Below are positions 9,064 to 22,749 of a DNA stretch of 32,596 bases, in pieces. Source of the stretch: an uncultured Rhodothermaceae bacterium. GTDB lineage: Bacteria; Bacteroidota; Rhodothermia; Rhodothermales; Salinibacteraceae. Under the pieces are notes generated by a model that was given only the letters and a program-made list of their open reading frames with translations, was not told where the DNA came from and made no database searches. The DNA lies in contig CAJXLX010000030.1 in assembly GCA_913056335.1 (NCBI GenBank), positions 1-32,596 on the forward strand. Direction: 5' to 3'. The position numbers and the translations under genes are program-made. Within the stretch, counting starts at the first letter, position 1; every line of letters starts with the position of its first letter.

Positions 9064-9519
9064 ATGGCACGTGGCGTAAACAAAGTCGTCTTGGTGGGTC
9101 GGCTGGGTCAAGATCCCGAACTCAAATACACCAACAGTGGCACTGCAGTGTGCACCTTCTCGGTAGCGACCAATGATTCGTACACCGACAGCAACGGCGA
9201 GCGCGTTGACACCACCGAGTGGCACAACATCGTGGTGTGGGGCCGACTGGCGGAGATCTGCGACGAGTATATCGACAAGGGCCAGCAAGTGTATCTGGAA
9301 GGCTCATTACAGACTCGCTCGTGGGAGGACCGCGACGGCAACAAAAAGTATCGCACCGAGGTAAAGGCACGCGAGGTCGTCTTTTTGGGCAACACGCGCT
9401 CAGACTCTCCAAGCACTACACCGCGCGAAGCCGTGCATGAGCCAGCGGATGTAGCGGCATACAGATCCTCTGAAAAGGCACCGGCTTCGGATGAACCCAA
9501 CGGCGCTCCACCGTTTTAA
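9064..9519 (+). CDS. ssb: Single-stranded DNA-binding protein, paralogue 1 (degenerate C-terminal tip)
   Basis: [37 protein letters not shown]...[24 protein letters not shown]-fold; ends DEPNGAPPF. Confidence 0.95.
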   Translation: MARGVNKVVLVGRLGQDPELKYTNSGTAVCTFSVATNDSYTDSNGERVDTTEWHNIVVWGRLAEICDEYIDKGQQVYLEGSLQTRSWEDRDGNKKYRTEVKAREVVFLGNTRSDSPSTTPREAVHEPADVAAYRSSEKAPASDEPNGAPPF

Positions 9520-9571: not shown

Positions 9572-10099
9572 ATGGCACGCGGCGTAAACAAGGTCATCTT
9601 GGTCGGACGACTGGGCCAAGATCCTGAACTCAACTACACCAACAGCGGCACAGCGGTGTGCAACATGCGCATGGCCACCGGCGACTCGTATACCAACCGC
9701 GAGGGCGAGCGCGTTGACACCACCGAGTGGCACGACGTGGTCGCCTGGGGCGGACTTGGCGAAACCTGCGGTGAGTATCTCGAAAAGGGCCGCCAAGTCT
9801 ACGTGGAAGGCTCACTCCAGACCCGCTCCTGGGAGGACCGCGATGGAAATAAGCGGTACAGCACCGAAGTGAAAGCCCGCGATGTCGTCTTTCTGAGTGG
9901 CGGCGACGGCGGCGGCCGACGCGGCAGTTCTGGTGGCAATAACAACCGCATGAACCAAGACAACGGCCCTGGCAACTTCGACCAGCGACGCCAACCGCGC
10001 AAGGGACAACAGCAGAGCAGCAGCCAGGGCGGAGGCGGCGGTGGCCAGAGTCAGCAGCAAGAAGACTCGTTCGAGCCCGACGACGATCTGCCGTTTTAA
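9572..10099 (+). CDS. ssb: Single-stranded DNA-binding protein, paralogue 2 (canonical SSB-Ct)
   Basis: [37 protein letters not shown]; Gly/Gln-rich linker; ends FEPDDDLPF. Confidence 0.96.
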
Positions 10100-20167: not shown

Positions 20168-20599
20168 AGAAACCCGCTTTACTCGATGCAACTGCGTTGA
20201 GGTATACGTACATGTAACCTACAACACACCGCCCCGCAATGTCCACCGCCCCCTGCTCATTTTTCTCGAAAGGACCGTGGAGCCGCACACGCCACAGCCA
20301 CTTCCCCGCTCCCTCCTGCGTCCAACGGTCCTCCGTTGGATGTCTACCGGAAACGCTCCAGTGTTGAGGCCCCGAGTTGGGTGCAACGCATTTTCGGCTT
20401 TCAGGGGAAAGCGAAGCCTCGTGCCCCCGCCCCCTATTCGTTCCGGACCTCCGGCGGCCCCACGGCTCCGCCCCGGGATCACCCATGCGCGGGCGCAAGT
20501 TAAGGCTCCCGCCCTTTCGGGCATAGATCCGGGTTCAAACGGCCTTGCCGCTCTTGGTTTCTGCTGTTCTATCTTCACCACACTATCTACCGCTGTGCC

Positions 20600-22711
20600 A
20601 TGGCTCGCCGCATCACGCTCGACCCCACCGGCTCCGGCGCTTCGCCCGAGAACCTCACGGTCGATTACCGCGCCGAGCTGAACGACCAACAGTACGCTGC
20701 TGCCACCGCTGACCCCGGCGCGCTGCTCATTGTGGCAGGGGCAGGCACCGGCAAAACCCGTACGCTCGTGTACCGGCTCTCGTATCTGGTGGAAACCGGG
20801 CTCGACCCGCGCTCCATTGTGCTGCTCACCTTTACGCGTCGCGCGGCCCGCGACATGATGACGCGCGCCGCCTCGCTCCTCGACGGACGCTGCCAGCGTG
20901 TACAGGGCGGCACCTTTCACAGCTTCTGCATGCAGCTGCTGCGCCAACACGCCCCTGCGCTCAACCTCTCGCCCGACTTCACCATCCTCGACGCCTCCGA
21001 CGCTGCCGACGTGCTCTCTATGCTTCGCACTCGCGGCGGCTACCCCGACCGGGCCGACCGCTTCCCCAACAAGGGCACGCTGCAGTCCATGTTCTCCGAC
21101 ACCGTCAACCGCGACCGCGCGCTCTCGGAGGCCCTGCACGACCGCTACCCGCAGTTTACGCACCTGCACGATGACCTGCACGAGCTGCAAGACACCTACC
21201 GCGCGTACAAAGCCGAGCACCACATGCTCGACTTCGACGATCTCTTGCGCCGCACCCACGAGCTGCTGTCGCAGAACGACGCCGTCCGCCAGCAGGTGGC
21301 CACGCGCTGTCGCCATGTGCTTGTGGATGAGTACCAGGACACCAACGCGGTGCAGGCCGATCTCGTGCAGCAGTTTACTTCGGTGCATGGCAACGTGACT
21401 GCGGTGGGCGACGACGCGCAGAGCATCTACCGGTTTCGCGGGGCCGACTTCCGCAACATCTTTCGCTTCCCCAAACAATACGACAACGCCCGCGTGCTGA
21501 AGCTGGAGCAGAACTACCGCTCCACCCAGCCGATTCTGGATCTGGCGAACCACCTCACCGACCACGCCGACCGCTCGTACGACACAACGCTCTTCTCGGA
21601 CGCCGACACGGGCGACCTGCCTGCCATTGTACCTGCTGCCGATACCGCCATGGAGGCGCGTTTCGTTGGACAGATGGTCGCGCAACTCCGTGAGCAGGGC
21701 GTACCGCTTCGCGACCAGGCCGTGCTCTTTCGCAGCAGCCACAACAGCTACGATGTCGAGATTGAACTGGGCAAGCGCAACATCCCGTACGTCAAGTACG
21801 GCGGCACGAAGCTGAGCGAGGCCGCGCATATCAAAGACGTGCTGGCACACCTGCGTGTAGCCGAGAATCCCGACGACGCCGCAGCCTGGAATCGCATCTT
21901 GCAGCTGATTCATGGCATCGGCCCAAAAACCGCGCAGGATCTCATCGACTGGCTCACCAACGACGACCACAGCGCGTTTGTGGTCGACGAGCAGGGCCCG
22001 TTCGCCCAGCGCTACCTCGACACGCTCACCCAGCTGCTGAACACGCTCCGCAGTATCCGTCCTGATGAGCAGCCGCTTACCGAGCAGATGGAAGCGGTGC
22101 TCACCTACTATCGCCCGCTGTTCGAGGAGACGTATCCCGACGACTACCCCAAGCGCGAATCGGATCTGGAGCATCTTGCGCCGCTCGCAGCCCGTTACGA
22201 CAGCCGACAGCGCTTTCTCGCGGACCTCACCCTGGACCCGATTGAGCTTACGGCGCTCGACCAAGAAGGCACGACCGACGACGAAGCCCCGCTCGTCCTC
22301 TCCACCATCCACTCGGCGAAGGGGCTCGAATTCCACAGCGTGTTTCTCATCCACGCACTCGACGGCACGCTGCCCTCGCAGTATGCCCTCGACGAACCGG
22401 GCGGCCTCGACGAGGAATTGCGCCTGCTCTACGTCGCCGTCACGCGCGCTGAGGAGACCCTCTTCATCTCGTACCCCATGCTGCAGACGAGCCGGTACTA
22501 CGGCGATACGATGGCCTCGCGCAGCCGCTTTCTGGAGAACATTCCCGAGTCGATTCTGGAGCCGGTAGAGCTGGTCGAAGCGCCGCCCGAATCCGCCCCC
22601 AACGAACTGCCCGATACCGCAGAGCCAGAGGCGCTGCCTGCGCCCACCGACGACAGCACATCCGACCCCGAACCGGACCCACCGGAGCCCGACGACGGAT
22701 TGCCGTTTTAG
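20600..22711 (+). CDS. UvrD/PcrA/Rep-like SF1A DNA helicase with SSB-like C-terminal tip
   Basis: AGAGTGKTRTLVYRL, VDEYQDTNAVQ, AVGDDAQSIYRFRGAD, LEQNYRST, LSTIHSAKGLEFHSVFLIHALDGTLPS, LRLLYVAVTRAEETLFISYP; C-terminus DPEPDPPEPDDGLPF*. Confidence 0.95.
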   Translation: MARRITLDPTGSGASPENLTVDYRAELNDQQYAAATADPGALLIVAGAGTGKTRTLVYRLSYLVETGLDPRSIVLLTFTRRAARDMMTRAASLLDGRCQRVQGGTFHSFCMQLLRQHAPALNLSPDFTILDASDAADVLSMLRTRGGYPDRADRFPNKGTLQSMFSDTVNRDRALSEALHDRYPQFTHLHDDLHELQDTYRAYKAEHHMLDFDDLLRRTHELLSQNDAVRQQVATRCRHVLVDEYQDTNAVQADLVQQFTSVHGNVTAVGDDAQSIYRFRGADFRNIFRFPKQYDNARVLKLEQNYRSTQPILDLANHLTDHADRSYDTTLFSDADTGDLPAIVPAADTAMEARFVGQMVAQLREQGVPLRDQAVLFRSSHNSYDVEIELGKRNIPYVKYGGTKLSEAAHIKDVLAHLRVAENPDDAAAWNRILQLIHGIGPKTAQDLIDWLTNDDHSAFVVDEQGPFAQRYLDTLTQLLNTLRSIRPDEQPLTEQMEAVLTYYRPLFEETYPDDYPKRESDLEHLAPLAARYDSRQRFLADLTLDPIELTALDQEGTTDDEAPLVLSTIHSAKGLEFHSVFLIHALDGTLPSQYALDEPGGLDEELRLLYVAVTRAEETLFISYPMLQTSRYYGDTMASRSRFLENIPESILEPVELVEAPPESAPNELPDTAEPEALPAPTDDSTSDPEPDPPEPDDGLPF

Positions 22712-22749
22712 CACCTGCCTATCTCATCTACCATCTGCTCCGGTTTCCC

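Follow-up and report, generated by a model that had tools for sequence, protein, structure and literature searches.

SSB is regarded as the organiser of genome maintenance in bacteria, recruiting about 20 proteins through one C-terminal tip. SSB tails also compete with DNA, and the tail is thought to act on the OB fold of its own SSB core. In the sites that bind the tip (SSB-Ct, DDDIPF or DDDLPF), the terminal Phe is buried, its carboxylate lies on a basic lip and the Asp residues lie on a basic ridge; loss of the Phe, or replacement of the Pro by Ser, greatly weakens binding (PMC10164576). When the SSB tail is grafted onto PriB, the fusion (PriB-SSBc) raises the stimulation of the PriA ATPase (PMC8509808), which proves that PriA can respond to an SSB tail placed on another protein. 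Escherichia coli Rep is brought to forks by its C-terminus, which tethers this helicase to DnaB (PMC10123100). In Deinococcus DdrB, on the other hand, a purported SSB-like motif in the tail proved unnecessary for radioresistance (PMC3834827).

The window analysed here, the whole stretch of 32,596 nucleotides, corresponds to contig C30 in a draft genome of 3.26 Mb whose completeness is about 86%. It encodes a helicase, P0001, with a C-terminus resembling that of SSB. P0001 resembles PriB-SSBc in that an SSB-type end stands on another protein, but PriB-SSBc is artificial and its carrier is an OB-fold protein. With Rep it shares a short C-terminal tail on what appears to be an accessory helicase; the peptide is different and the partner is probably different too. 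DdrB differs from P0001 in being a ssDNA-binding annealing protein. The helicase tip is a docking peptide of a known type on a novel carrier, and we found no earlier description of an SSB-Ct mimic on a helicase in the openly accessible literature.

RESULTS

A divergent superfamily 1 helicase with an SSB-like C-terminus

The positions of the helicase and SSB features are given in Table 1. P0001 scores above the cut-off for both helicase domains (E-values of 3e-69 for PF00580 and 1.1e-54 for PF13361), and the closest solved structures are those of PcrA (1pjr, the best match) and UvrD (2is1). The motor is therefore like that of the Rep/PcrA/UvrD proteins, and AlphaFold2, using 43 sequences, models it with confidence (pTM 0.80, core pLDDT mostly 80–96). 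Where P0001 differs is in its scores against the curated equivalogs, which are 420.9 bits for PcrA (TIGR01073, cut-off 911), 396.6 bits for UvrD (TIGR01075, cut-off 1144) and 377.9 bits for Rep (TIGR01074, cut-off 951). As all three are less than half of the cut-off, we place P0001 in a divergent subfamily. It also differs in having no Tudor-like C-terminal domain, the AlphaFold2 model containing no folded element past residue 664, and in ending in an SSB-like tip instead. A profile search gave no match to the OB fold PF00436 in P0001, which is not an SSB protein.

Table 1. Coordinates of the helicase and SSB features in the window
Feature	Position	Strand	Basis
SSB1, 151 aa, degenerate tip DEPNGAPPF	9064..9519	+	PF00436, E 4.7e-41
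SSB2, 175 aa, canonical tip FEPDDDLPF (tip codons 10070-10096)	9572..10099	+	PF00436, E 1e-37
UvrD/PcrA/Rep-like superfamily 1 helicase P0001, 703 aa	20600..22711	+	PF00580, PF13361
Acidic/proline-rich C-terminal tail, predicted disordered, residues 665-703	22592..22708	+	AlphaFold2 pLDDT; variable among orthologues
SSB-Ct-like terminal tip EPDDGLPF	22685..22708	+	ORF translation; kept in 44/69 in-order orthologues

The protein ends in ...TDDSTSDPEPDPPEPDDGLPF, of which the last eight residues are EPDDGLPF, and the stop codon TAG follows at 22709-22711. The original prediction held that this end nearly matches the end of SSB2 and that it stands on a probably disordered linker. Translation bears out the first point (EPDDGLPF against EPDDDLPF), and the structural model agrees with the second, since residues 665–703 have a pLDDT below 50 and are left undocked on the motor. 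The tip is thus predicted to terminate a flexible linker, just like the tip of SSB. Compared with SSB-Ct in general, the helicase tip has the same terminal Phe, penultimate Pro, hydrophobic residue at −3, acidic run and disordered linker, whilst the carrier is a superfamily 1 motor without an OB fold, position −4 is often G where SSB has D or E, and the linker is acidic and Pro-rich where that of SSB is Gly/Gln-rich. When the 3.26 Mb assembly was scanned for [DE]-x-[hydrophobic]-P-F-stop, five matches were obtained, and the only recognisable gene ends among them were those of SSB2 and the helicase.

Of 60 relatives that were searched, most have an orthologue of P0001, at 50–95% identity; in a small number the search matched only a paralogous PcrA-like helicase. 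By its sequence this paralogue (L137-L139) has the usual Tudor-like tail, and it bears no tip; the two helicases of the lineage thus appear to differ in their tethers. An origin of the P0001 gene in a mobile element is not supported, the gene lying beside parA/parB-type and metabolic genes, and an SSB gene being found 10–13 kb away both in the window and in several relatives. An antisense ORF of 831 aa (20219-22714) over the helicase gene probably arises from the high GC content.

Conservation of the tip on a variable tail

The C-termini of orthologues were compared across the 60 relatives and 40 more from the class. The original prediction hung on the tip being conserved in close orthologues, and in the window's own family it is present in 24 of 25. 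Over the whole order, an LPF end is found in 44 of 69 orthologues and in 22 of 36 genera, with the fuller pattern [DE]xLPF or [DE]LPF in 36 of the 69. The tip is missing from all 22 orthologues read in other orders of the class, and it was absent among about 75 complete distant relatives from other phyla; the idea that it is a general feature of UvrD-like helicases is accordingly rejected. Within the subset chosen for LPF, the invariance of L-P-F is true by definition, and the unbiased figures are 24/25 and 44/69 against 0/22.

The tail before the tip varies in length and sequence even among congeners, as seen by comparing DPEPDPPEPDDGLPF with SAPKSDLSEPEDGLPF in proteins that are 95% identical overall. 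Although the linker columns are unconserved, L-P-F is kept and D is present at −5 in 35 of the 44 tips. An acid is found somewhere at −6 to −4 in 39 tips, and 38 have at least two acids among the last eight residues; in family f9 LPF is present and the adjacent acids are absent. Most families of the order show the tip, each time on an otherwise unconserved tail. Three whole families (f3, f12 and f13) have no helicase tip. The SSBs of f3 retain theirs despite this loss (L179, L180, L185), and since the tip is gone from the helicase in f3, f12 and f13 while the SSB tip stays, the helicase tip is dispensable in those lineages. Mapped onto a tree of the helicase core (51 orthologues), presence and absence of the tip require seven changes of state. 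These changes are unpolarised, and the simplest story is one early gain followed by several losses. The helicase tip is thus real, conserved and lineage-specific.

SSB genes and the origin of the likeness

No third SSB was found in the assembly besides SSB1 and SSB2. The tandem ssb pair, with ends NGAPPF in SSB1 and DDDLPF in SSB2, is also present in the congener G001, and other genomes of the family have one to three SSBs. In 29 relatives, the SSB loci that were read have D[DE]LPF as their last residues. Because these genomes keep the tip on SSB, they should also contain pockets that accept it.

The original prediction also pointed to a close codon match between the helicase tip and that of SSB2. 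This carries no weight, as over 18 genomes the codon identity between helicase and SSB at shared residues was 29/72 within genomes and 577/1206 between genomes. With identity no higher within genomes than between them, nothing points to copying from one gene to the other, and a tip copied from ssb by recent gene conversion is rejected.

Other proteins with the tip

DNA patterns were used to look for further bearers in seven genomes, five being scanned for [DE]x[hydrophobic]PF-stop and five for [DE][hydrophobic]PF-stop, with three shared. One bearer found was a family-B DNA polymerase (PF00136; L200-L229 and L320-L325). About 29 of its 35 orthologues in the order end in DEVPF, DEIPF, DDVPF or TEVPF; the copy in the same genome as P0001 (L213, G000:C129:6637-8052) ends in TEVPF. 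Some members from other classes of the phylum have the tip too (DEDVPF in L333, EEVPF in L335). With an acidic [VI]PF tip on this polymerase as well, the sequences make the tip look like a portable C-terminal docking tag on proteins of DNA metabolism.

In several relatives the polymerase gene is split by large in-frame insertions, probably inteins. Two similar proteins of one genome (L326 and L301, both in G033) end in DDEVPF, and L326 is a primase-helicase by its domains (Toprim and AAA_25). Three further proteins have no Pfam or PHROG match: L310 (310 aa) ends in EPDTDLPF, L327 (343 aa) in EADEELPF, and L155 (134 aa, Cys-rich) in APDDDLPF.

Candidate partner pockets

On the ligand side, the helicase tip has what the known sites read, namely a terminal Phe with a free carboxylate, a penultimate Pro and a run of Asp. 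The original prediction went on to propose that the helicase mimics SSB and could compete for, or recruit, its binding partners. This part finds partial support: with a conserved tip on an unconserved tail, and one that fits the SSB-Ct rules, recruitment of SSB partners may soundly be inferred. The codon-level link to SSB that accompanied the proposal is not evidence of copying.

Which of the possible partners would be recruited can be narrowed by examining their pockets. The SSB-Ct site of PriA comprises Trp82, Tyr86, Lys370, Arg697 and Gln701 in Klebsiella (PMC5531588), the E. coli numbering being one higher (W83, Y87, K371, R698 and Q702). In the host PriA from four genomes, the three clearly alignable residues W, Y and K are conserved in all four, and Q in three; at R698 the alignment is ambiguous in three genomes and the residue is absent in the fourth. 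The RecG pocket (R467, R474 and R614) has fared differently in L346-L349, where R474 is replaced by F or G, R614 is replaced by T or A, and R467 is found in L349 only. The RecG of this lineage thus lacks the E. coli pocket arginines, though the SSBs of the lineage carry the canonical tip, and RecG as a partner by homology with E. coli is not supported. Since the PriA pocket is largely kept and the RecG pocket is not, the list of possible partners should be narrowed accordingly, and PriA is the best-supported candidate partner of the helicase tip.

Alternative readings of the tip

A live alternative is that the LPF end is a C-terminal degron, through which ClpXP or an adaptor would turn over the helicase, SSB and other LPF proteins together. 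In some Streptococcus mutans strains, LPF, the last three residues of SsbA, suffices for degradation by ClpXP and can be transferred to GFP (PMC5143411), and within the helicase tip, too, it is L-P-F that varies least, even where the acids are lost. However, recognition of LPF is strain-specific, and was unseen in E. coli, S. gordonii and S. sanguinis (PMC5143411). The acids would be superfluous for a tripeptide degron, yet they are kept at the frequencies given above (D at −5, and two or more in the last eight residues), and the polymerase tips end in VPF or IPF, not LPF. We therefore regard joint turnover as improbable.

The tip could instead act in cis or on SSB, blocking either the helicase's own path for ssDNA (auto-inhibition) or the OB fold of SSB. 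Such a role would suit an acidic tail tethered beside the motor, and a segment of the SSB tail does contact ssDNA sites (PMC8509808). Against it, AlphaFold2 leaves the tail undocked on the motor, which is weak evidence, and L-P-F-COOH is more constant than charge alone, pointing to a shaped pocket. This too seems unlikely to be what the tip is for.

It is quite doubtful that the tip is a degenerate β-clamp-binding motif (rule Q-phi-x-L-(x)-F; PMC11139829) placing the helicase on the sliding clamp. There is some resemblance, in that xLPF matches positions 4–6 of the hexameric QLxLxF and a DinB from a genome of this family carries QLALPF close to its C-terminus; furthermore, the clamp motif of E. 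coli Pol II lies in its C-terminal tail (PMC11139829), where the tipped family-B polymerases end. For this last reason the clamp reading is, by analogy, somewhat stronger for the polymerase than for the helicase. In the helicase, Q is found at −6 or −5 in none of the 44 tips and an aliphatic residue at −5 in one, so that the canonical motif is not present, whereas the DinB proteins of the lineage keep the canonical Q-L (QLELAF, QLEFDF, QLALPF) and loss of the Gln strongly weakens clamp binding (PMC11139829). In addition, the SSB of the same genome has a near-identical peptide. Judged by its residues, the helicase tip fits the SSB-Ct rules better than the β-clamp motif.

Finally, chance, or a relic, in which a low-complexity acidic tail happens to end in LPF, is a very remote prospect in spite of the shortness of the motif and the several families without it, and the conservation of the tip already largely refutes it, given 24 of 25 orthologues in the window's own family, recurrence in most families on free-running linkers and only seven changes of state among 51 orthologues.

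DISCUSSION

We think it probable, on balance, that the tip docks in SSB-Ct pockets, that of PriA first, and that in this way an accessory helicase is tethered to the factors of restart or repair. P0001 would be an accessory helicase of the Rep/PcrA type, in which a folded motor is followed by a disordered acidic linker of about 40 residues. The linker ends in [DE]-x-L-P-F-COOH, a short linear copy of the C-terminal tip of SSB. This motif probably docks in the SSB-Ct pocket of at least one SSB-interacting protein, and PriA is the candidate with the best support. Once docked, the helicase would be held by the factors of replication restart or repair at forks or gaps, bypassing SSB; alternatively, it may take over a partner delivered by SSB. 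The tip would then do the same job as the DnaB-binding C-terminus of E. coli Rep, by means of a different peptide. Whilst the tip, its conservation on a freely varying linker, its distribution in the lineage, the predicted disorder of the tail and the three conserved PriA residues are results of the analysis, we infer the binding of the tip, its partner and the role of the helicase at forks, and for the SSB-docking reading the case of DdrB serves, by analogy, as a warning.

A wider reading, which we put forward more tentatively and hold to be possible rather than probable, is that the SSB tip of this order is a docking code shared by SSB, the helicase, the family-B polymerase and occasional phage-type primase-helicases. 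The other bearers would compete with SSB for the pockets of PriA and other proteins, and this competition would control the hand-over of partners at the fork. If so, hand-over would be set by several tip bearers and not by SSB alone.

If the helicase tip does dock, its conserved presence on a helicase, and that of a like tip on a polymerase, would imply that SSB-Ct pockets are read by further proteins as well as by SSB, with SSB-independent recruitment and competition for the pockets as consequences. The lineage would also provide a natural test of what SSB-Ct pockets discriminate. The tip could, in addition, explain how non-proteobacterial accessory helicases, which are without the Rep–DnaB tail, gain access to forks.
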